Below, piece by piece: positions 1 through 38,624 of a DNA stretch of 38,624 nt; the first letter of the stretch is position 1; every line of letters starts with the position of its first letter. Below the pieces are notes generated by a model that saw only the letters and a program-made list of their open reading frames with translations, was not told where the DNA came from and ran no database searches. Position numbers and translations under genes: made by a program. The stretch comes from a virus, in IMG/VR virus record IMGVR_UViG_3300030060_004693, positions 1 through 38,624 of that record. One strand, given 5' to 3'.

Positions 1-151
1 AGGGCGGAGAGAGTTTCTTTTCGGACTCCTCAGTTTTCCAGCTGAGCAAGCCCCTTTGGTCGTTACAACAGGACATATTGCGCTCTTCCAAGCAACCGTT
101 GTCCTCCCCATGATCGTAGGTTTTTATTTCACACCCGGAGGAAGACGATGA
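1..151 (+). CDS. C-terminal part of phage membrane (holin-like) protein, truncated by window start
   Basis: The reading frame is open from base 2 and ends with TGA at 149-151. It encodes the last ~49 residues of a protein whose complete relative is at 36444-36908, with nearly the same residues up to a GGRR C-terminus. The fragment contains one hydrophobic segment (HIALFQATVVLPMIVGFYF) that should span the membrane. The stop overlaps the ATG of the next gene (ATGA), so the two are probably translationally coupled. Its position in the small-membrane-protein cluster suggests a role in lysis or at the membrane, but that is inference from context. Confidence 0.75.
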   Translation, partial: GRREFLFGLLSFPAEQAPLVVTTGHIALFQATVVLPMIVGFYFTPGGRR

Positions 152-297
152 TAGATAAAGATTGTTTGATAGGCATAGGAGGAACGCTTGCAACTTTTTC
201 AGGTTCTTTGCATGAAGTTGTCGGAGTGGTAGCGGGTACGTTGACCATCATATTCATGGGTGTAAAACTTTGGCAGGAGTTCAAGAAGCGCAAATGA
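148..297 (+). CDS. 49-aa single-pass membrane protein (holin or lysis accessory candidate)
   Basis: The ATG at 148 overlaps the upstream stop and the TGA at 295-297 overlaps the next ATG at 294. The protein begins MIDKDCLIGIGGTLATFSG, has a central hydrophobic stretch of about 20 residues (VVGVVAGTLTIIFMGVKLW) and ends in a positively charged tail, KKRK. That is one membrane helix with a basic cytoplasmic end, as in small holins and antiholins. A homologue with several replacements lies at 36905-37054, and conservation of reading frame, length and topology between the copies supports it being a real gene. No catalytic motif is present. The holin role is inferred. Confidence 0.7.
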   Translation: MIDKDCLIGIGGTLATFSGSLHEVVGVVAGTLTIIFMGVKLWQEFKKRK

Positions 298-1928
298 GCA
301 GATACCGTTCATATGGAAAGCTTGACGATCAAGTACTCAGCGAAGGGGATCGTGGATTTCGTGGTATCGATTCGTACCAGGAGAAGACTTCGCTCGAAGG
401 TGGATTCGTGGAGACTTCCGAGAATATGCGATTGGTTGGTGACTTGGCGGAGACACGCAAGGGTATAGACTTCCTCGCTGGCGCAGTTACGCTTACTTAC
501 TCAGCGGGGGTTGACCAGGTATTTGCATCCACGCTATTCAGCGACCCCGCAACTGGCGTAGAGTTTGTCGTAGTGGCAACCAAGGACAAAGCGATCATAT
601 GGAATGACGCAAACAATTCGGGCATTGCGATTGATTATCCCGGGTCGGAAGTAGTCGCTACCGCAGACGGAGCGAGTTTCGTACAATCGATGGAGAAGTT
701 GATTTTGTTTCGTGGCAAGAACAAGACCCCACTCGAATGGGATGGGGACTATTCAAGTCCGACTGATTTCGTGGTAAAGGCAAACGCATCACCAGGTAGC
801 GGAAATATACAATGTCCGAATACCGACTATGGAGTATTCTTCCGCAACCGACTTATCATTCCACAACCTACTGATTCCAAGTACTCGATCTTGATGAGTA
901 ACTTGTTGGATACGGACGTCTATACTCCGGGTGACGCGCAATTCAGAATCAACAAAGGTTCAGCGGATTTCCTCGTAGGCTTTTATCCGTACCAAGAAGA
1001 CCAGTTAATCGTGTTCATGCGTAATAGCATTCACATGATAAACAACATTGCGACTGTAAGTGCCGCCAATACTTACGAGATCACCCGTCAGCATGGATGC
1101 GTAGCTCGCAAGAGTATCGCTCAGTCAGGCCCGCAAACCTTCTTCTTGAGTGATAACGGAGTTATCGTCCTTAGTCCCGGTACTGATCCTGCGAAGGGAT
1201 TGGGGGTCGCAATCAGCAAGGTTACCGGAGAAACGATTCCGATGACCCGTCAGATTCAAGATCAATTTGAGGACGTGAACTTCGCTCATGCGGACAAAGC
1301 GTGTGGCGTGGTGTATGACAATCGTTACATTCTTGCTTGCCCAACAGGGAGTAGTACTGTTCCAAACAAAATTTTTGAGTACAATTTACTTACTTCGACT
1401 TGGACTAGTGTAAATTCTTACCCCGCAATGGCAGGAAGCTTGGCATTCCACGTGGATGATTGGGTGATTTGTTCGCATGGTAGCAATCCTACGAAACGCA
1501 GATTGTTCGCTTGCAACGATACGGGATGGTATCTCATGGAAGAAAACGCTACTGACGATAGTGGACGCAAGATCGGTAGTTCGAGCGAGTCAGGCACTAC
1601 CGCAATAGCGGGAAAACTCGTCACTCGCGCATATACTTTGGGCAACCAAGAGGTCAAGCGTTGGAGGCGCGGACAACTAGGAGTCAACACGGTTAACAAC
1701 GATGCGTTCAACATCAAGGTCAATACGCTCGATCCTGACGCTTCAACTACCGTCCTGAGTCATACCGCAAGTGGGACTGAAGAAGCCCTTCTACGCTTCG
1801 GTACGGGACGCACAAGAGGGTATGGCGCGCAAGTCGAGATAAACGTTACTGCGGGCAGACCAAGCTTTAGACACGTCTCCTTGGATGCGATCCAAGATGG
1901 ACTCAATATGCGAACGGAGGTTGCGTAG
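294..1928 (+). CDS. Tail structural protein, beta-propeller-like DNA-stabilisation / tail-hub candidate (544 aa)
   Basis: A longer reading with a TTG at 270 is possible, but the ATG at 294 (MSRYRSYGKLDD) overlaps the upstream stop and matches the second copy at 37051, so 294 is preferred. The N-terminal pattern of a lightly charged start followed by GGFVETSENMRL and RKGIDFLAG is typical of phage tail proteins that begin by describing the virion tube. The rest is a series of short beta-rich blades, for example QLIVFMRNSIHMI, FFLSDNGVIVLSPG and DWVICSHGSNPTKRR. Size and organisation recall P22 gp10 packaged-DNA stabilisation proteins; that is fold-level resemblance only. It leads an overlapping tail operon with the fibre gene starting at the base after its stop. 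A diverged, frameshifted copy lies at the right end. Confidence 0.75.
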   Translation: MSRYRSYGKLDDQVLSEGDRGFRGIDSYQEKTSLEGGFVETSENMRLVGDLAETRKGIDFLAGAVTLTYSAGVDQVFASTLFSDPATGVEFVVVATKDKAIIWNDANNSGIAIDYPGSEVVATADGASFVQSMEKLILFRGKNKTPLEWDGDYSSPTDFVVKANASPGSGNIQCPNTDYGVFFRNRLIIPQPTDSKYSILMSNLLDTDVYTPGDAQFRINKGSADFLVGFYPYQEDQLIVFMRNSIHMINNIATVSAANTYEITRQHGCVARKSIAQSGPQTFFLSDNGVIVLSPGTDPAKGLGVAISKVTGETIPMTRQIQDQFEDVNFAHADKACGVVYDNRYILACPTGSSTVPNKIFEYNLLTSTWTSVNSYPAMAGSLAFHVDDWVICSHGSNPTKRRLFACNDTGWYLMEENATDDSGRKIGSSSESGTTAIAGKLVTRAYTLGNQEVKRWRRGQLGVNTVNNDAFNIKVNTLDPDASTTVLSHTASGTEEALLRFGTGRTRGYGAQVEINVTAGRPSFRHVSLDAIQDGLNMRTEVA

Positions 1929-12550: not shown

Positions 12551-13019
12551 GCGATGCATAATAGCAATCGATCCGGGTGTGAAGGGTGGATTTTGTCAAT
12601 GGATAGGTGGACAAATGATACAGGCTTGGAAGTTTACGAGCTTGTCAGACTTCACATCCGACGTGTTTGACTTGATGCACGATCCCGATTCCACGCTTGA
12701 ATTCGTACTTGAGGACGTACCTCCCTTTGCGGGGAAGAACATACCATCAAGCACGGGCTTTAAGCTAGGCAAGTCTTGTGGCTTCTACGAGGGGCTTGCA
12801 AGGGGCTTGAAGATTCCCTGCCACCTCGTATCCCCAAAGACTTGGCAAAAGGGCTTGGGAGGCTTGGCAAAGACGTCAGGGGCGCAACGCAAGAGGTTGC
12901 TCAAGGATCATGCATCGAGATTGTACCCTGACCTTGGTAAAGAGATTACGTTGGCCACCGCAGATGCAATACTCATAGCGCACTACTTCGTGACGTTGGA
13001 TGGCGGAGTTCGAGAATAG
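12543..13019 (+). CDS. RuvC-like Holliday-junction resolvase (158 aa)
   Basis: The RNase-H-like fold is marked by IIAIDPGVKGGF (Asp10), FVLEDVPPFAGKN (Glu57), VSPKTWQKGL (about residue 97) and ATADAILIAHYF (Asp141), which supply the acidic metal site. The reading frame is open upstream, but the ATG at 12543 has AAAGGAGG at 12529-12536 and starts exactly at the conserved N-terminus. Phage RuvC-like enzymes resolve branched replication intermediates before packaging. A second, unrelated nuclease that might do the same job follows with a 20-base overlap. Confidence 0.85.
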   Translation: MSERCIIAIDPGVKGGFCQWIGGQMIQAWKFTSLSDFTSDVFDLMHDPDSTLEFVLEDVPPFAGKNIPSSTGFKLGKSCGFYEGLARGLKIPCHLVSPKTWQKGLGGLAKTSGAQRKRLLKDHASRLYPDLGKEITLATADAILIAHYFVTLDGGVRE

Positions 13020-13434
13020 CTTAGGGGTAGGGAAGGACAGGGAAGAGGAGGTAATGGCATTCATGCGTAAGCATGGTCACTTCCCTGTTCCCATACCCGG
13101 ATACTTTAAGGGGTATGACTTCTTCAATGCGAACACTAAGCAAGCATACGAGGTGAAGCAGGATTGGAAGAGCAGATATAGTGGTAACTTGGTAGTGGAA
13201 GTAGCATTCGGAGGAAGACCCTCGGGGCTAAGTACAACTACCGCAGATTGGTGGATCTTTCATACCGGAGAGGAGTACATATTCATGCAACCCGAAACAA
13301 TCCGCAAGCTCATCAAGAAGGAACGTCTGCGCCCTGCGAAATTCGTAGGCAAGGGAGACGTAAAACAAAAGGAAGCATACCTTGTTCCGGTCAAGACGAT
13401 CAAGCGATATGCGGAGAAGGTACACACGCTATGA
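13000..13434 (+). CDS. PD-(D/E)XK endonuclease, possible second resolvase (144 aa)
   Basis: The core GYDFFNANTKQAYEVKQDWK gives Asp40, Glu51 and Lys53 of the PD-(D/E)XK motif. It is followed by SGNLVVEV and PSGLSTTTADWWIF, a conserved block of phage nucleases that act on branched or foreign DNA. Glu residues at 15-17 (GKDREEEV) may complete the site. The start ATG lies 20 bases inside the RuvC-like gene. It could be a debranching enzyme, a homing-type nuclease or a resolvase; the exact substrate cannot be told. Confidence 0.75.
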   Translation: MAEFENSLGVGKDREEEVMAFMRKHGHFPVPIPGYFKGYDFFNANTKQAYEVKQDWKSRYSGNLVVEVAFGGRPSGLSTTTADWWIFHTGEEYIFMQPETIRKLIKKERLRPAKFVGKGDVKQKEAYLVPVKTIKRYAEKVHTL

Positions 13435-13613
13435 ACAGGCTCGAATGGTTATCCATACAATACGTCAAACATCCGTCAAACATCCTCGATTATCTACAGG
13501 ATTACGGATTAATATCGGATAATTGTTGGCAACTGGGCCAAGTTGTCAATGATGAGGAAGCATGGCTTTTCATCGTCCGACATTGGAAAGAATTCACAAA
13601 AACACATAAATGA
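13431..13613 (+). CDS. Hypothetical protein (60 aa)
   Basis: The ATG at 13431 overlaps the nuclease stop (ATGA), and the TGA overlaps the start of the next small membrane protein. The protein begins MNRLEWLSIQYVKHPSNILD and is rich in Trp, Leu and acidic residues. Family unknown. Double overlap and lack of alternative frames make it likely real. Confidence 0.6.
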   Translation: MNRLEWLSIQYVKHPSNILDYLQDYGLISDNCWQLGQVVNDEEAWLFIVRHWKEFTKTHK

Positions 13614-13741
13614 AAATGATTAAAAGATTGGTAAAGATATTAAACAAAATAGGTTTGCACGCCTTGTTTCTGCTGGCTTGCACGCTATTCGCCTACATGA
13701 TCCTCATGTTCGTACTGACTTTGATGGGTGTATTCTCATGA
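13610..13741 (+). CDS. 43-aa single-pass membrane peptide
   Basis: A short ORF with the start ATG overlapping the upstream stop and the TGA overlapping the next ATG (13738). It has a basic start (MKMIKRLVKILNKIG) and then one hydrophobic span (HALFLLACTLFAYMILMFVL), the typical inside-positive membrane topology. It sits between nuclease and helicase-loader genes. No role can be proposed beyond membrane association. Confidence 0.6.
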   Translation: MKMIKRLVKILNKIGLHALFLLACTLFAYMILMFVLTLMGVFS

Positions 13742-14196
13742 GCAAAACCAAGGAAAAAAGAATCGTACTGGGAGAGACTCCGGCACGCATATTGGATGAA
13801 TATTGCGAGCTATACGGAGTCCCGGCATCTGCCGCTATTAACGTACTAATCATGGATGTTTTACGTAAACGCCTCGCGCGGGCGCGTCTTTCCTTCGGAA
13901 AGAATATATTACAAACTAGCGCCGATATCCGCCAAACATCCGACAATCCTCCGAAATCGCGGAAGAAGAAAGCTTCGCAAATTCCCGATGATTTCTCCCC
14001 TCCTCGAAGCATTGCGCAGGACGAGGGGTTGAACTACGAAAAGGCATTGGAAGTATTCGTTGACTGGGCAAAAGGAAAGGGTGAGGTCAAGGCGGATTGG
14101 GAACGTACCTTTCGGAACGCTTGTCGAGGATGGATACCCGAAAGGTTTCCCGATCTGAAAAAGGGCAACTCAGAACCCAAGCTTCACGAATTCTAA
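13738..14196 (+). CDS. Replication protein, possible helicase loader (152 aa)
   Basis: The ATG at 13738 overlaps the preceding stop. Residues 1-50 (RIVLGETPARILDEYCELYG then a helix) resemble a small ribbon-helix-helix or HTH unit. A basic linker (KSRKKKASQIPDDFSPPRS) connects to a C-terminal block, KALEVFVDWAKGKGEVKADW followed by RTFRNACRGWI. That block is the tail pattern of DnaT-like and phage replisome-organiser proteins, which bring DnaB to the origin. It lies directly before the dnaB-like gene, with the helicase GTG starting right after its stop. The role is inferred from this motif and the neighbour. Confidence 0.65.
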   Translation: MSKTKEKRIVLGETPARILDEYCELYGVPASAAINVLIMDVLRKRLARARLSFGKNILQTSADIRQTSDNPPKSRKKKASQIPDDFSPPRSIAQDEGLNYEKALEVFVDWAKGKGEVKADWERTFRNACRGWIPERFPDLKKGNSEPKLHEF

Positions 14197-15462
14197 GTGG
14201 ATTACGATTTGGCAGAGATTGCGGTACTCGCATCCGCGATGAGGGACGAGACGGGAAGGAGCGCGGCCCAAGCGCTCGAACATCTCACGCAAGAAGATTT
14301 CTCCTCTCCCGAGCGTCAGTCGATCTTCGAGGTAATCGGAAAGCTCGCACCCGACTGCAATGACGTGGACGTGATGATGGAGTTACCCCAAAGTACGGAT
14401 GCCATTTCTTCCATCTCTCAGCAGTATGGAGGTGGAAAGATTACGCGCTACGTCGATCATCTTATCGAGCATCGCAACCATCGCGCGGTTGAACGCGCCC
14501 TCCTGGTAGCGAATGACGAACTCAACGAGGACAAGAGCGCCGAGCAGATCGCGTCAGGTTTCACCGCATCCGTTGCAAAGTCGCTTTCAAAACGCAAGGG
14601 ACAGGTTCACGTCAAGGACGCATCACAAGAAGCTCATGCGGAATACCTCGCACTCGATGCCGGACAAGCAAGCGCGATAAGCACGGGATTCCCAAAGCTT
14701 GACGCACATCTCGGAGGAGGTTTGCAAAACGGAAAGCTTTACGTACTCGGAGCAAGACCAGGAGTAGGAAAGAGCGCGTTAGCCATGCACGTCACCCTCC
14801 AGGCTTCACGCAAAGGAATAAGGACGAGCTACGTATCTCTAGAGATGGGTGCTGCAGAATGCGCGGGAAGGCTTCTTTCCAACGCAAGCGGGGTTTCTCG
14901 TCCTACGGAAGCGGGCAAGCTTACCGCTCAGGAGAAGACCAAGCTTGCGGATACCGCGAAAGCGATGAAGGGATGGCCGATAACTTTCAAGGATGACAAC
15001 AAGGCAACCCTCGAAGCATTGGGCGCGTTTCTCGCTCAACAAAGACTCGAAGGAGAACTTGGGTTTGCAGTAGTGGATTACTTGCAACTGCTCACAAGCG
15101 AGGGTTACGATTCGCGAGTCCAGGAAGTCTCCGCAATATCGCGAACCCTCAAGCAAATGTCGCTCGCCTATGAGATCCCCGTACTCGCCCTTTCGCAACT
15201 CAATCGCGGGAATGCCAAGGAGAACCGCAAGCCTTCGCTTTCCGATCTGCGCGAATCCGGTTCAATCGAGCAGGATGCGGATGCGGTAATCCTCTTGCAC
15301 CGCGAGAAAGAGATTGATCGAGAGAATGATTGCATATGGATGCACCTCGCGAAGAACCGAGGAGGACAGACAGGCGTGTCATACAGTACCTTCGAGAAAC
15401 CTCTGGGGCGTTTCTCCTCATACGTCGAGCCTCGCTTAAACCAGGACAAGCCTCCTTTCTAA
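14197..15462 (+). CDS. dnaB: Replicative DNA helicase, DnaB family (421 aa)
   Basis: N-terminal domain (residues 1-135) and RecA-like motor are both present. The Walker A is GARPGVGKSA (185-194), the catalytic glutamate is in YVSLEMG (Glu216), Walker B is VVDYLQLL (292-299), the sensor is LSQLNR (332-337), and AKNRGGQTG carries the arginine-finger region. The start is GTG immediately after the preceding stop. A hexameric 5'-3' helicase at the fork is expected. No primase or DNA polymerase gene is present in the window, so host enzymes probably complete the replisome. It is the last gene of the + strand replication operon. Confidence 0.95.
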   Translation: MDYDLAEIAVLASAMRDETGRSAAQALEHLTQEDFSSPERQSIFEVIGKLAPDCNDVDVMMELPQSTDAISSISQQYGGGKITRYVDHLIEHRNHRAVERALLVANDELNEDKSAEQIASGFTASVAKSLSKRKGQVHVKDASQEAHAEYLALDAGQASAISTGFPKLDAHLGGGLQNGKLYVLGARPGVGKSALAMHVTLQASRKGIRTSYVSLEMGAAECAGRLLSNASGVSRPTEAGKLTAQEKTKLADTAKAMKGWPITFKDDNKATLEALGAFLAQQRLEGELGFAVVDYLQLLTSEGYDSRVQEVSAISRTLKQMSLAYEIPVLALSQLNRGNAKENRKPSLSDLRESGSIEQDADAVILLHREKEIDRENDCIWMHLAKNRGGQTGVSYSTFEKPLGRFSSYVEPRLNQDKPPF

Positions 15463-15484
15463 GCATGGATGGATATGCTAGAGT

Positions 15485-15524
15485 AGCCTTTGCGTGTCCC
15501 TGAGAGTACCTAGAAGGGCTTTTT
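15485..15524 (+). terminator. Candidate intrinsic terminator of replication operon
   Basis: AGCCTTT at 15485-15491 can pair with AAGGGCT at 15514-15520 (one G.T pair), leaving a 22-base loop, followed by five T (15520-15524). The stem is moderate. Its 3' arm is also the 5' arm of the longer inverted repeat described next, so the two folds exclude each other. Confidence 0.5.
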
Positions 15525-19204: not shown

Positions 19205-19297
19205 TTAGTCTCCTTTATTGTTATCGCTTAGTATATCCACATGCATCACGTACAAAGCGTAGAGCATAGGTAGCAAAATCAAAATGTCGTAGCTCAT
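19205..19297 (-). CDS. 30-aa membrane peptide
   Basis: The ATG at 19297 overlaps the stop of the 123-aa gene (ATGA). The peptide MSYDILILLPMLYALYVMHV is almost entirely hydrophobic and ends DNNKGD, with the KGD codons forming the AAAGGAG ribosome-binding site of the next gene. Too short to predict a function beyond a transmembrane segment. Confidence 0.5.
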   Translation of the reverse strand: MSYDILILLPMLYALYVMHVDILSDNNKGD

Positions 19298-19665
19298 GAC
19301 AAATCCGGCGCAAGGATTCCATAGCCTCCCCAGTCTCTCTCGATCTCAAGCTTTCTTTCCTTTACGCTTTCGCTCTCAATCTTCAAAGCGTATCCTCTAG
19401 GGTCTCCGTTCACGTAAAACTCGTTCGGGTCTTTGGGGTTGAGCAAAGCAATTAGCTTGCCCACGATATCAAGACCGATTTCTTCCCATTGCTCCCAATC
19501 CATAAATCCGTTGCAGTGATCGGTTGACGCGCCATGCGCTTTAACTTCAAGCCTTCTAAGCTTCTTGCAAAGCTTTATCGGGTCTTGCTCCTTTGCGTCA
19601 GGGTATGCACGCAAAAGGTCTTTGCCATGCGCAAGAATGCGCTCCTTTAGTTTTCCTTGATTCAT
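19294..19665 (-). CDS. Phage protein with DWGGYGILAP end, first gene of accessory operon (123 aa)
   Basis: The segments DPIKLCKKLRRLEVKAHGAS, VNGDPRGYALKIESE and RDWGGYGILAPDL are hallmarks of a phage protein family of unknown function seen in many early accessory regions. AAGGAG lies about 10 bases before the ATG at 19665. A promoter match lies at 19764-19792, about 92 bases of leader upstream of this start, so this gene is the head of the twelve-gene operon. Confidence 0.75.
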   Translation of the reverse strand: MNQGKLKERILAHGKDLLRAYPDAKEQDPIKLCKKLRRLEVKAHGASTDHCNGFMDWEQWEEIGLDIVGKLIALLNPKDPNEFYVNGDPRGYALKIESESVKERKLEIERDWGGYGILAPDLS

Positions 19666-19763
19666 TTTGTTCTAGTCTCCTTGGTTTAGTTTAAGATTTG
19701 CGAAAGTTAGACCCTCGCTTTGTGGAATCAATATCGTCTTTTCATGTCGCTCTGTAAAGCAAA

Positions 19764-19792
19764 AAGATAAATTATTTTCAAAAAACTTTCAA
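19764..19792 (-). promoter_or_regulatory. Promoter of minus-strand accessory operon
   Basis: Read on the minus strand, TTGAAA (19787-19792) is the -35 box and TATCTT (19764-19769) the -10, separated by exactly 17 A/T-rich bases. The predicted start near 19757 gives a ~92-base leader before the first gene at 19665. Three AAACCTTGC repeats lie just behind it and may be regulator sites. Confidence 0.55.
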
Positions 19793-19837
19793 AACCCGCA
19801 TACCTATCACGATTGCGAGCGAAAAAAAATTTGCACG

Positions 19838-19911
19838 AAACCTTGCGAAAAACAAAACTCTCTGAAAACCAAGGCAAAACAAGCTCGCAAACCTTGCCAC
19901 GAAAACCTTGC
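19838..19911. repeat. Three direct AAACCTTGC repeats beside the accessory promoter
   Basis: AAACCTTGC occurs at 19838-19846, 19889-19897 and 19903-19911. The last two are 14 bases apart. They lie 46-119 bases behind the -35 box of the minus-strand promoter. Such short repeats could be operator sites or origin iterons. Their spacing is irregular, so chance is possible. Confidence 0.4.
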
Positions 19912-20096
19912 AAACCATTCAGGAAAGCATGACCAAAGCGCGACCAGGTAAGCAAGGAAGGGAACAAACGCAAAGGAGCAACCAAGCAAAACATATCATC
20001 ATATCAGCATGCGTTGATGCGTAGCCAATGCATTTCGAGGAGGAATAGGAAAAATACAATATGAAAAAAGAAGCGCAAAAAATACAATCCGGATAA

Positions 20097-20213
20097 ATGG
20101 CAAGATCCGCAAATATTCGCAAAGCTCGCCAAGCAAATTCCCGCCAATTCGCAAACCGTGCAAGCGTGGCCCGCAAACCTAAGCGAGTTAGCGCAAGACA
20201 ATTAGTCTATTGA
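20097..20213 (+). CDS. Possible 38-aa basic peptide in control region
   Basis: ATG at 20097 directly follows a TAA. The peptide reads MARSANIRKARQANSRQFAN then RASVARKPKRV, very rich in Arg, Ala, Ser and Lys as in small nucleic-acid-binding peptides. It is the last of a chain of four tiny overlapping ORFs (19929-20213), and a + strand terminator exists at 20440. Against it: no clear ribosome-binding site of its own and no recognised family. A non-coding RNA is an alternative. Confidence 0.25.
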   Translation: MARSANIRKARQANSRQFANRASVARKPKRVSARQLVY

Positions 20214-20230
20214 TTTTAGACCGCGCGCCT

Positions 20231-20288
20231 GGGGGGGCGGGGGCGCGTGCGTGCGGGCGCGTTCTTTCTATATTATCATCACCCCCCC
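20231..20288. other. G-run / C-run element in control region
   Basis: Seven G at 20231-20237 are followed by further G tracts and, 44 bases on, seven C at 20282-20288. The + strand could form a G-quadruplex or a G7/C7 stem enclosing a GC-rich loop. This block is much richer in G+C than its flanks and codes for nothing convincing. It may mark an origin or regulatory boundary. Confidence 0.4.
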
Positions 20289-20300
20289 TACTATTTTTTT

Positions 20301-20347
20301 CGCACTATCGCTCCTTGCGTATTCGCACTATCGCCCCTTTGCGTATT
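20301..20347. repeat. Two ~24-bp direct repeats with a degenerate third
   Basis: CGCACTATCGCTCCTTGCGT plus ATT at 20301-20323 is followed at 20324-20347 by CGCACTATCGCCCCTTTGCG plus TATT; 20348-20366 carries a degraded third copy ending TTTGCCCCTTTG. Contiguous units of this length are typical of iterons or operator arrays. No ORF uses them. Confidence 0.55.
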
Positions 20348-20439
20348 CGAGTCTTTGCCCCTTTGTTGTTTTCGGGCTTGCGCGAAGCGTCCTGCCATGG
20401 TTTGATGTCCTCGGAAAACCTCTTAGTTTTTCTATTTAT

Positions 20440-20476
20440 AGCTCGCTTGGAATTGCCGTTCCTTGCGAGCTTTTTT
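20440..20476 (+). terminator. Rho-independent terminator, + strand
   Basis: AGCTCGC (20440-20446) pairs with GCGAGCT (20465-20471); after a TT/TT internal loop, GGAA pairs with TTCC around a six-base loop. Six T follow (20471-20476). The orientation shows that some + strand transcript from the 19.8-20.4 kb region is ended here, although no solid gene is known there. Confidence 0.7.
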
Positions 20477-20500
20477 GTTTGGCTTATTCTTTGTGGTTCG

Positions 20501-21106
20501 TTATTTCTCGCTATCTTGCATGGAGGGTTTCCATATCTTGTACCCTGCGTGTTGTACGATTTCTTTGCATAGGTCTATGAATTCCTCATCCGTCAGGTGA
20601 CCCTTTGCCTGGTTTGCGTCCGTGCATAGTAGTTGTAAGTTGTTTATGGTATTGTCTCCGCCCCGAGCAATGGGGACTCGATGGTCGTATTGGTAGTCCT
20701 CGGGGTTGTTCCATTGTAGTGGTCTTCCTGTTAGTGCGCATTGGAAATGATCTCCGTACTTTGCATGTACGTCCTTGTAATTGAAAGTCATTGTCTTTTG
20801 GAACTGGTGAGCTTTTTGTGATATTGCCTTTGTTGTTTGTCTATGGGTCTTGTGCTGATACCAGGGAGGTTTGTTTGGTGATGGTGTTCTTGGGTTTCTA
20901 AAGTGCCATACTCTCTTTACGTGTATGAGTGTTGGGTTTTCCTCTCTTTGTTTTGCCTCTCTGTCTCTGACCTTCTTCTTTCCGCCCGGGGATAGATGGT
21001 ATGAGATTGTGGATTTGGAGCAATTTAGGAGGTTTTGTATCTTATCGTATGAATACCCTTGCTCACGCAGGGCGATTATTCTTGGCCCGAGGGAGGGCTT
21101 GGGCAT
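20501..21106 (-). CDS. HNH endonuclease with N-terminal helix-turn-helix (201 aa)
   Basis: The C-terminal domain CALTGRPLQWNNPEDYQYDH followed by VPIARGGDNTINNLQLLC is a complete HNH fold, with the DH pair, the central N and the terminal cysteines for metal. The N-terminus IIALREQGYSYDKIQNLLNC with SKSTISYHL is a resolvase-type HTH that would give site recognition. HNH proteins beside terminase genes assist headful or cos packaging in several phages. It is coupled by ATGA to the 173-aa gene upstream. A free-standing homing endonuclease is the other option. Confidence 0.85.
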   Translation of the reverse strand: MPKPSLGPRIIALREQGYSYDKIQNLLNCSKSTISYHLSPGGKKKVRDREAKQREENPTLIHVKRVWHFRNPRTPSPNKPPWYQHKTHRQTTKAISQKAHQFQKTMTFNYKDVHAKYGDHFQCALTGRPLQWNNPEDYQYDHRVPIARGGDNTINNLQLLCTDANQAKGHLTDEEFIDLCKEIVQHAGYKIWKPSMQDSEK

Positions 21107-21627
21107 CAGCTATCGGGTTTTATGTCCACGACTTTTTGTTCGGAAGCTTCGGTTGGTTGTTCTTTTACTGTCTTTGACGCTCCCTTTAGTATCTGAGCTA
21201 CTTTGTCGGGTGACATGTCTGAAGCTCCTAGTGTGACGTTTGCCGATGCGGTGATGTTTGAGGGTCTGCCTGATACGGTGAGGAACTTGTCCATGACTAT
21301 GGAAACTGCGTATGCGAGGTTTTGCGGGGGTATGTCATCCAGTTTCGAGTGCAGGGTGTTTAGGGAGTCGGCCACCATGTTCGAGAGTTTCGAGTTCACT
21401 TGATTGAGGAACTCCTGTTCTGTCATGTCTAGGCGGTATCTCAGGAAGTTCGCTACTGCGTTTTTGAGTTTGGGATCTGCCTTTGCTATCTTGCGGGCTT
21501 CTGCCTCTGCATTTGATTGTTTTGAAGCGATCTTGGCAGCTGATTTGATTATGTTGTTCTTTGTCATATCGTCACAAAACCCTCTTACTGAGTTTGGTTT
21601 TTTTCGTCTTCTGTATATGCGGGGCAT
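21106..21627 (-). CDS. Small terminase subunit candidate (173 aa)
   Basis: The segment IPPQNLAYAVSIVMDKFLTV is like the 'IPPxDLAxALGILxDK' helix of proteins found next to phage terminases, and the rest is helical and acidic. The start is unclear: ATG at 21627 has no ribosome-binding site; ATG at 21567 (MTKNNIIKSAAKI) is an alternative. It shares an operon with the HNH endonuclease, a frequent terminase partner, but lies on the opposite strand and ~3.6 kb from the large subunit. A DNA-binding packaging role is inferred, not proved. Confidence 0.5.
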   Translation of the reverse strand: MPRIYRRRKKPNSVRGFCDDMTKNNIIKSAAKIASKQSNAEAEARKIAKADPKLKNAVANFLRYRLDMTEQEFLNQVNSKLSNMVADSLNTLHSKLDDIPPQNLAYAVSIVMDKFLTVSGRPSNITASANVTLGASDMSPDKVAQILKGASKTVKEQPTEASEQKVVDIKPDS

Positions 21628-21685
21628 CTTTTTTTGTTAATTGTCATATTTTTATTGACTATGCAATTAAAAAGCGTAGGGATGC

Positions 21686-22132
21686 ATGCGGATGAAGATT
21701 GAAGTGGCTAGTGAGATTTTGGAGAAGAGCGGGATAAGTAGGGATGAATTTGCGAGTATGGTTGGCGTGAAGAGTACTTCCATGCGTATGACTTTTTACA
21801 ATGGACGGTTCAGCAAGAAAGCGGTTGCCCGTCTCGAATTGCTTGCGGAAGACTTGGGTATGGATTTGGAAGGTGGTCAGGAGGAAGCTCGGGACGTGAA
21901 GGAAGGGATGATTAGGCAGAGTATGGGCGAACCGAGGGAGCGCATGGGAGTTGTTTATTCATTGCCTAGAAATCCGTATTTGCGACTTGTTGAGTTTGAG
22001 GATGGTACGCATGGGAAGTTTCGTGCTAAGGAGGGCAGATTCGGATTGGGTAGTCGTGTTAGGTTGAAGAAGGGCGAGGGTGGACTTTGGGAGTTATGCG
22101 GTGAGTATGACAGGAAGGATCGGTTGGTATGA
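21686..22132 (+). CDS. HTH regulator, possible phage repressor or early activator (148 aa)
   Basis: Residues 5-60 (ASEILEKSGISRDEFASMVG then KSTSMRMTFYNGRFS and ARLELLAEDLGMDL) look like an XRE-type five-helix HTH. The C-terminal part, with LVEFEDGTHGKFRAKEGRFG, is beta-rich. A TTGACT at 21655-21660 with a poor -10 may be the promoter. The ATG six bases downstream (21692) is an alternative. It is the first gene of the + strand methyltransferase/terminase operon and the best candidate for the master regulator. Its stop overlaps the methyltransferase start. Confidence 0.6.
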   Translation: MRMKIEVASEILEKSGISRDEFASMVGVKSTSMRMTFYNGRFSKKAVARLELLAEDLGMDLEGGQEEARDVKEGMIRQSMGEPRERMGVVYSLPRNPYLRLVEFEDGTHGKFRAKEGRFGLGSRVRLKKGEGGLWELCGEYDRKDRLV

Positions 22133-23058: not shown

Positions 23059-23517
23059 ATGAGTGATGACGAGGTGGAGATCAGGGACTTGGTATCCGTA
23101 TTATTGGGACTTATGCCTGCAAGTGAGCGCAAGATCGTGAGTATGTATTATTTGGAAGGGTACAAGTGTAGGGAGATAGGCGAGCGTTTTGGAGTGGGGG
23201 CGGGTCAGATTAGTCTGATTATACGAAATATCATTCGCGAATGCGGGCATTTGGTCACCCAGTTGGACAAGAAGAGGAAGGTATTTTTTCAACCTTTGAT
23301 TTCCAAGAAGTCCATATTGTTTGATCATACTGCGTATTCGAGGAAGAAGTTATTGGATCGAAGAAAGGCAACGAAGGAGAAGCAAGACATGGAAGAAGCA
23401 TGGGCATACGAGAATTTTCAAGATCATTGGAAGTGGAGCATAGAGAAGGGTCATCACGTTCACCCTGCCATACGCAGAGCGTATAATCGATTGATGGAGG
23501 AATCCAAATGTGGATAA
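23059..23517 (+). CDS. Sigma-70 region-4-like HTH transcription factor (152 aa)
   Basis: The first 75 residues (LMPASERKIVSMYYLEGYKC then REIGERFGVGAGQISLII) have the LPxxERxIxxxYYLEGxSxxEIAExxG signature of sigma region 4. The rest (from about residue 90) is basic and helical. No region 2 is present, so it is not a complete sigma factor; it may be an anti-host factor, an activator or a late-gene regulator. The two near-identical late promoters at 26951 and 30628 make it a candidate for their control. Its stop overlaps the GTG of the next gene. Confidence 0.6.
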   Translation: MSDDEVEIRDLVSVLLGLMPASERKIVSMYYLEGYKCREIGERFGVGAGQISLIIRNIIRECGHLVTQLDKKRKVFFQPLISKKSILFDHTAYSRKKLLDRRKATKEKQDMEEAWAYENFQDHWKWSIEKGHHVHPAIRRAYNRLMEESKCG

Positions 23518-36444: not shown

Positions 36445-36908
36445 TGTTCGAGCTACTTGCTTTGTTTCTGACCGGAGGAGGGTCTGCCGCAATGGGGTCG
36501 ATCCTCAAGGGTGTGTTTGGAGCAATGACGGATTCCCGTCAGCAGAAGTACGAAATGGAAATGGCGCGGGAGGCGCGGAATAATGAATTTGCAATTGAAT
36601 ATCAGAAGAGTCTTAACTCAGGCCCAGGTGGTGCGTTCACTCGCGCTACTCGCAGGATGCTTGCTCTTATTGGGATGTCTACGCTCGCGTTCATCACCTG
36701 TATCACCACCGTCTACCCAAGCGTACCGCTCATCAGTACAACAAACATTACAGGAGAAGGGCGGAGAGAGTTTCTTTTCGGACTCCTCAGTTTTCCAGCG
36801 GAGCAAGCCCCTTTGGTCGTTACAACAGGACATATTGCGCTCTTCCAAGCAACCGTTGTCCTCCCCATGATCGTGGGCTTTTATTTCACACCGGGAGGAA
36901 GAAGATGA
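36444..36908 (+). CDS. Multi-span membrane protein, holin-like candidate (154 aa)
   Basis: Hydrophobic segments include an N-terminal Gly/Ala-rich stretch (LLALFLTGGGSAAMGSILKG), MLALIGMSTLAFITCITTVY and HIALFQATVVLPMIVGFYF. A charged helix (QQKYEMEMAREARNNEFAIE) lies between the first two. Two or three spans and a charged loop are the layout of holins and related lysis membrane proteins. Its end matches the truncated gene at 1-151 almost exactly. The TGA overlaps the next ATG. Confidence 0.65.
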   Translation: MFELLALFLTGGGSAAMGSILKGVFGAMTDSRQQKYEMEMAREARNNEFAIEYQKSLNSGPGGAFTRATRRMLALIGMSTLAFITCITTVYPSVPLISTTNITGEGRREFLFGLLSFPAEQAPLVVTTGHIALFQATVVLPMIVGFYFTPGGRR

Positions 36909-37054
36909 TTGATCGAGACGTTTTATGGGGATTCGGAGGGACACTTGCAACCTTTAGCGGGTCTTTGCACGAATGGATAGGTGTGGTGGCTGGTTCGCTC
37001 ACGATTGTTTTTATGTCGTTTAAAATTTGGCATGAGATAAAAAAACGCAAATGA
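36905..37054 (+). CDS. 49-aa single-pass membrane protein, second copy
   Basis: This is the diverged homologue of 148-297: MIDRDVLWGFGGTLATFSGS, then a span (WIGVVAGSLTIVFMSFKIW) and KKRK. Many replacements are conservative (I/V, K/R, L/I), as expected for two functional alleles. The start overlaps the preceding stop and the TGA overlaps the next ATG at 37051. Small holin or antiholin is possible. The surrounding arrangement is identical to the left end. Confidence 0.7.
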   Translation: MIDRDVLWGFGGTLATFSGSLHEWIGVVAGSLTIVFMSFKIWHEIKKRK

Positions 37055-38624
37055 GTAGGTATCGATCATACGGCAGACTTGATGATCAGGTTGCAAGCGA
37101 AGGAGATCAAGGCTTTCGCGGTATTGATTCATACCTTGAGAAGACCTCGCTCGAAGGTGGATTCGTAGAGACTTCCGAGAATATGAGATTGGTTGGTGAC
37201 TTGGCGGAGACACGCAAGGGCATAGACTTCCTTGCGGGTGCAGTTACGCTTACTTACTCAGCAGGGACTGAACAGGTATTTGCATCAACGCTCTTCAGCG
37301 ACCCGGCAACGGGCGTAGAGTTTGTCGTAGTGATTATCCCGGTAGTGAAGTAGTCGCTACCGCAGACGGAGCGAGTTTCGTACAGTCGATGGAGAAGTTG
37401 ATTTTGTTTCGTGGCAAGAACAAGACCCCGCTCGAATGGGACGGGGACTATTCAAGCCCGACTGATTTCGTAGTGAAGGCAAACGCATCACCTGGAGGTG
37501 GAAACATACAATGTCCGAATACTGATTTTGGCGTGTTCTTCAGAAACCGACTTATCATCCCACAACCTACGGATTCCAAATATTCGATCTTGATGAGTAA
37601 CTTGTTGGACACGGACGTCTATACTCCGAGTGACGCACAGTTTAGAATCAACAAGGGGTCAGCGGATTTCCTCGTAGGATTTTTTCCTTACCAAGAAGAC
37701 CAGCTCATTGTGTTCATGCGTAATAGCATTCACATGATAAACAACATTGCGACAGTAAGTGCTGCCAATACTTACGAAATCACCCGTCAGCATGGATGCG
37801 TAGCTCGCAAGAGTATTGCTCAGTCAGGCCCGCAAACCTTCTTCCTGAGTGACAATGGAGTTATCGTCCTTAGTCCCGGTACTGATCCGGCTAAGGGATT
37901 GGGGGTCGCAATAAGCAAGGTATCGGGAGAAACGATTCCGATGACCCGTCAAATCCAAGACCAATTTGAGGACGTGAACTTCGCTCATGCGGACAAAGCG
38001 TGTGGCGTGGTGCATGACAACAAATATTTCTTAGCAGTACCCACGGGTAGTTCTACCGTGCCTAATGCGATATTCGTATATAACTTGCTCACCTCCACTT
38101 GGGTAAGCGTGGACAGTTATCCCGCAATGGCGGGAAGCTTGGCATTCCACGTGGATGATTGGGTAATTTGCTCGCATGGTAGCAATCCTACGAAACGCAG
38201 ATTGTTCGCTTGCAACGATACCGGATGGTATTTGATGCATGAGAACGCTTCTGACGATAGCGGTAGGAAGATCGGAAGTTCGAGCGAGTCAGGCACTACC
38301 GCAATACCGGGAAAACTCGTCACTCGGGCATACACTTTGGGCAACCAAGAGGTCAAGCGTTGGAGACGCGGACAATTGGGAGTCAACACGGTTAACAACG
38401 ATGCGTTTAATATAAAGGTAAATACGCTCGATCCTGACGCTTCCACTACCGTCCTGAGCCATACCGCAAGCGGGACTGAAGAAGCCCTTCTACGCTTCGG
38501 TACGGGACGCACAAGGGGGTATGGCGCGCAAGTCGAGATAAACGTTACTGCGGGTAGGCCGAGCTTTAGACACGTCTCCTTGGATGCGATCCAAGATGGA
38601 GCGAACATCAGAACGGAGGTTGCA
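37051..38624 (+). pseudogene. Frameshifted second copy of tail structural protein (58-bp deletion), truncated by window end
   Basis: From 37051 to 37332 it runs with 294-575 of copy 1. At 37333 it lacks 58 bases that copy 1 has at 576-633, so the frame shifts and reading ends at 37353 after 100 codons. Beyond the deletion the original frame is again fully open to the window end, with mostly silent differences from copy 1, which shows recent loss. The last codon present is the final sense codon before the stop in copy 1. Either an assembly error/strain mosaic or a true deletion. Confidence 0.7.

Follow-up and report, generated by a model that had tools for sequence, protein, structure and literature searches.

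The window analysed here, which takes in 38,624 of the 38,954 bases of an IMG/VR virus record, carries a G-tract block which, by comparison of sequences, is a lineage-wide element shared by no fewer than 59 related phages, and which is moderately supported as the replication origin of the phage. This function was one of three that the original prediction had proposed for the surrounding interval, and it is supported by the lineage-wide conservation of the block, by its fixed geometry and by a strand asymmetry that begins beside it; it is further favoured because the phage encodes SSB-like, initiator-like and DnaB proteins. In the form preferred here, to which a probability of somewhat under one half is assigned, the block would be an origin that works mainly rightward, probably opened by an R-loop at the G-tract and primed by RNA, the RNA step being one that we infer.

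The phage and its gene-free interval

The rightward genes of the window code for SSB-like, RecE-like, RuvC-like, initiator-like and DnaB-like proteins, and are followed by a leftward array of small genes, which ends at 19665, and then by a gap of 835 bp. To the right of the gap lie a leftward gene with HTH and HNH domains, the leftward gene c2, the rightward gene c4, methyltransferases and a terminase-like gene (Table 1). No close cultivated phage was found for the genome, nor any for the block or c2; the capsid matches that of Phage C75C1 at 43%, other matches being weaker. The relatives used for comparison are uncultivated phages on IMG/VR metagenome contigs, apparently marine to judge from the sample series of the contigs, and are mutually related and not independent copies. 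The ends of the window (1-1924 and 36758-38624) repeat each other at 85-89% identity, with a 58-base change of offset; given this limited identity and the change of offset, the record seems to be a junction of two related strains and not an exact circle.

The absence of any solid gene from the gap, as predicted, is borne out, since no gene lies between 19665 and 20501. The predicted length of 835 bp is likewise correct, although the interval assigned to it, 19764-20480, is shorter than the gap so described. The tiny ORFs reported there do not behave as genes: in the + strand ORFs all three codon positions change equally (31/40/33 substitutions) and the codon changes are mostly nonsynonymous (53 versus 17 synonymous). 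The proposed minus-strand promoter is one of 3 matches where 3.1 are expected, and its hexamers are not conserved. A search for tRNA genes found none. GC skew, suggested in cumulative form as a check, does turn at the gap, in a test that gene direction confounds. The two other functions originally considered fare poorly. A lysogeny switch finds no support, as no repressor flanks the gap and the sole nearby HTH regulator (c4) lies 1.2 kb beyond it; a stand-alone structured regulatory RNA finds no match among known families in an Rfam search, no fold of the block better than shuffled RNA (z -0.5) and no convincing covariation. A perfect 14-nt inverted repeat, ACGCAAAGGAGCAA, which contains AAGGAG, is present at 19585-19598 and 19968-19981, spanning the gene 19294-19665 and the gap.

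Table 1. Positions of the G-tract block, its flanking features and the replication genes in the window
Feature	Position	Strand	Remarks
Primosomal/initiator-like gene	13678-14196	+	Presumed origin user
DnaB-like helicase gene	14197-15462	+	Presumed origin user
Gene-free interval	19666-20500		835 bp, between leftward gene 19294-19665 and leftward HNH gene
Three AAACCTTGC repeats	19838-19911 (starts 19838, 19889, 19903)	+	Part of CTTGCAA motif
G-tract GGGGGGGCGGGGG	20231-20243	+	Present in 59/59 distinct blocks; interrupting base C or A
TTCTTTCTATATTATCATCA then C-tract (C7)	20262-20288	+	Fixed distance from G-tract
T-run then CGCACTA	20294-20307	+	Nearly invariant anchor
Short direct repeats TTCGCACTATCGCCCCTTGCG	20299-20362	+	Iteron-like; copy number varies among relatives
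Intrinsic terminator	20440-20477	+	Only in some relatives
HTH + HNH endonuclease gene (HNH)	20501-21106	-	Adjoins block where sequence available; + strand fourfold G+T 0.80 (p 1e-8)
c2	21106-21627	-	Highly conserved protein, no family match; + strand fourfold G+T 0.76 (p 3e-7), 0.65-0.84 in most relatives
c4	21686-22132	+	HTH plus OB-fold-like domain; + strand fourfold G+T 0.74 (p 2e-4)
Stretch with a + strand low in C and A (fourfold sites)	20501-22132	+	Read as single-strand exposure footprint

Conservation and geometry of the block

Protein searches and block alignment show that, of the whole gap, only ~90 bp (20224-20314) survive in distant relatives. Conservation among relatives had been named as a check on the original prediction, the lack of it, with a transcript also absent and the skew minimum elsewhere, as grounds for giving it up; the core is kept lineage-wide, and as far as sequence can tell the prediction was not refuted. 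The block consists of the G-tract (G7CG5), a GC-rich spacer of ~22 nt, TTCTTTCTATATTATCATCA with its C7 tract, a T-run, GCACTA and then the short repeats. The G/C block pointed out earlier is indeed the sole place in the window, on either strand, with at least 11 G in 13 nt.

A gapped pattern, built from nine distant relatives with 8-38 nt allowed between its halves, retrieved 41 stretches from IMG/VR, all of them 52 or 53 nt long, and also matched a bacterial genome entry (L075, 1-240). This last match was rejected as a chimeric assembly, being a piece of the phage lineage joined across Ns to a Kapaibacterium MAG scaffold. A search with c2 led to 80 loci, where those with no exact match to the pattern carried diverged versions of the block, with G-tracts such as G7AG5, G4AG8 and G2AG5AG5 and C-tracts such as CCTCCCCC. 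In this looser set all 59 distinct blocks, a count that leaves out three other regex matches of unrelated sequence, have a G-tract of 11-13 G in 14 nt, and the C-tract/T-run/GCANTA anchor follows 42-50 nt downstream of it. The tract is interrupted by C in 46 blocks and by A in 13, and in several diverged blocks the left flank is unrelated in sequence. Since either interruption is tolerated, what is kept is a G-rich + strand tract at a defined spacing, rather than an exact word. The block is always situated between the early leftward genes and HNH-c2-c4. No description of the element was found in a literature search of mainly openly readable papers.

Two sets of repeats reported in the original prediction are confirmed. 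There are 3 copies of AAACCTTGC in the gap and 4 in the window against 0.48 expected, as part of a lineage-wide enrichment of CTTGCAA in the gap (103 seen versus 13.5 expected, in 35 of 42 loci), in its left half; the direct repeats at 20299-20349 obtain a TRF score of 88. Such repeats are central to an origin driven by protein, in which an initiator would bind them, melt the AT-rich TATTATCATCA and load DnaB, while a protein would read the G-tract and C-tract and no RNA primer would be used. This initiator-bound origin shares most of its evidence with the R-loop origin: the spacing of the block is fixed, the direct repeats adjoin the AT-rich segment, and initiator-like and DnaB-like genes are present with no iterons in or beside the initiator gene. 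It is nevertheless considered unlikely, as the block tolerates C and A interruptions, different splits of the tract and unrelated left flanks, which is unusual for a protein site, and as lambda and HK97, whose origins are of the O type, lack a comparable asymmetry. An origin inside the initiator gene, of the lambda/P22 type, was also sought and rejected, no such repeat family being found in 12900-15500.

Strand asymmetry to the right of the block

The asymmetry was measured at fourfold degenerate sites, the use of which removes amino-acid effects. For the window as a whole the + strand G+T content at these sites is 0.48; the single genes tested range over 0.40-0.65, apart from HNH, c2 and c4, whose values are given in Table 1. 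The first two of these genes run leftward and c4 rightward, yet all are biased, and the bias thus belongs to the strand and not to gene direction. When the relatives are pooled, + strand G+T lies at 0.63-0.79 between +250 and +1750 and has fallen to 0.47 by +2000; at the peak, C makes up 6-9% and A 12-20% of + strand fourfold sites. The asymmetry holds in about 70 relatives, and 45 further loci gave a + strand G+T of 0.65-0.84 for c2. None of the genes tested in lambda and HK97, among them the neighbours of cos and of the O-type origin, rises above 0.62. An antisense gene was rejected as the cause of the skew, since stops occur in every antisense frame of HNH and c2 in relatives.

Where DNA is exposed as a single strand and deaminated, the expected trace is a loss of C and A from that strand. 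The asymmetry of HNH-c2-c4 fits a + strand repeatedly exposed in this manner. Ordinary transcription of HNH and c2 would leave the other strand exposed. The peak of the asymmetry lies over c2, at +0.8 to +1.4 kb, and in most relatives the noncoding DNA next to the block shows background or near-background values; an opposite skew to the left of the gap occurs only in the window's own clade. The origin reading is weakened by this distance of ~1 kb between peak and block, and also because the three genes are nearly always found together, so that gene-specific codon bias is not fully separable from position.

The origin reading is weakened, too, by the resemblance to a cos site of an HNH gene beside a conserved GC-rich site. 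Were the block to serve in packaging, as cos or pac, c2 would act as a small terminase subunit that binds the repeats, and HNH would help TerL to cut the GC-rich block. Like the cos sites of HK97 and lambda, the block is a conserved GC-rich site with repeats, adjoined by an HNH gene, and many contigs break in its zone. Moreover, a small terminase subunit is not recognised elsewhere, and c2, which is among the most conserved proteins of the lineage, has a C-terminal half (DKFLTVSGRPSNIT) that may resemble such subunits; its structure model is all-helical, but of a quality too poor for a structure search. Against this, c2 matches no family in Pfam, NCBIfam, PHROGs or PDB, no terminase family among them, and the HNH and c2 genes point away from the terminase gene, unlike the arrangement at HK97/lambda cos. 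The contig ends scatter from +72 to +274 and from -69 to -363, with no pile-up at a common cut position, and near-complete contigs run through the block. Resection of a cut end by the RecE-like 5'-3' exonuclease of the phage would, on the right, lay bare the strand opposite to the one observed, which makes the sign of the skew wrong for resection, and no skew is seen in the genes that adjoin cos in lambda and HK97. Taken with these points, a packaging role seems a rather poor prospect.

The third gene, c4, is predicted to encode an HTH followed by an OB-fold/IF1-like domain, an unusual pairing supported by weak E-values, and its product might, besides DNA, also bind RNA or single strands.

Probable transcription through the block

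A + strand transcript had been predicted from a terminator within the gap. The terminator is strong, with a hairpin at 20440-20471 followed by a U-run (-18.7 kcal/mol, z -3.8), but it is not conserved: it is present in the window and in relatives L006 and L018, and missing from the close relatives L005 and L020. This loss is relevant to a role in transcription control, in which a + transcript would pause or end at the G-tract/T-run and the terminator, and would thereby insulate the leftward HNH-c2 operon or give rise to a small antisense RNA. Such a role draws on the strength of the terminator in the window, on the T-run and on the terminator-like hairpins found at the G-tract in many relatives. 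It is regarded as improbable, since close relatives lack the terminator, structure and covariation do not exceed chance, and the asymmetry across three genes is unexplained by it alone.

A + strand transcript through the block is likely, as a primer rather than a regulator. A motif which is promoter-like in sequence, TATAAATA, occurs on the + strand within 80 nt upstream of the G-tract in 23 of 44 loci, and in 18 of the 23 motif copies measured it is 29-30 nt away. The RNA-priming reading is weakened because the window itself has no TATAAATA upstream of the G-tract, because no copy is recognisable in 34 of 57 blocks, and because the block folds no better than shuffled RNA. In a different part of the window, 23059-23517 codes for a small protein resembling sigma factor region 4, possibly a phage sigma factor able to read promoters of the TATAAATA type.

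For the R-loop origin the following course may be envisaged, in which we infer the origin function itself, the RNA primer, the G-quadruplex and initiator binding. A + strand transcript would start just upstream of the block and cross the G-tract, where its G-rich RNA would either remain base-paired with the C-rich template or, together with the displaced + strand, build a DNA:RNA hybrid G-quadruplex. Termination or cleavage of the transcript near the C-tract/T-run would then leave a 3' end that primes leading-strand synthesis rightward. The displaced + strand would remain single-stranded over ~1.5-2 kb until lagging-strand synthesis caught up, and over evolution this exposed strand would accumulate C-to-T and A-to-G changes. 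The repeats that flank the block would bind the phage initiator and recruit the DnaB helicase.

Comparison with known systems

R-loops formed at the G-tract of mitochondrial CSBII prime replication (PMC6317783), and R-loop priming is known also for T4 oriF (PMC3016281) and for the ColE1 origin (PMC5043065). The block resembles CSBII and the heavy-strand origin in its ~12 G with one interrupting base (here G7CG5 or G7AG5), found in all 59 blocks on the strand that would be displaced, in its downstream T-run and, in many relatives, in an upstream motif, here promoter-like. The flanking composition likewise fits long exposure of one strand, namely downstream displacement of the strand with the G-tract, at a peak offset by ~1 kb from the block. 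The genome and enzymes are unrelated to those of mitochondria, however, the distance from G-tract to T-run is longer in the phage, and the phage block adds a conserved C-tract and short repeats. At T4 oriF and oriG, R-loops are reported to be independent of specific sequence (PMC3016281), whereas a G-tract is retained without exception in the phage block; the two systems also differ in motif, genes and genome size. If the reading holds, the block would share with ColE1-type origins (PMC5043065) a template-paired transcript that serves as primer and a helicase loaded on the displaced strand, yet the phage supplies initiator-like and DnaB-like genes of its own, and no pair like RNA I/RNA II was identified.

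Implications

Replication origins as such are known, while the G-tract element has no earlier description in the literature searched, and the block may be viewed as a candidate member of the R-loop class. A broader proposal is put forward tentatively, and is held to be possible rather than probable: that across the lineage the G-tract traps a transcript as a DNA:RNA hybrid (an R-loop or hybrid G-quadruplex) to start replication, convergently with mitochondrial CSBII, through a D-loop of ~1.5-2 kb that has left its footprint in the three flanking genes. If this is true, G-tract-anchored primer formation, known in mitochondria, would have arisen independently in phages. A conserved interrupted G-tract, together with a short strand asymmetry that is independent of gene orientation, would then serve as criteria for finding origins in uncultivated phages, and would provide a testable prediction for every genome of the lineage.
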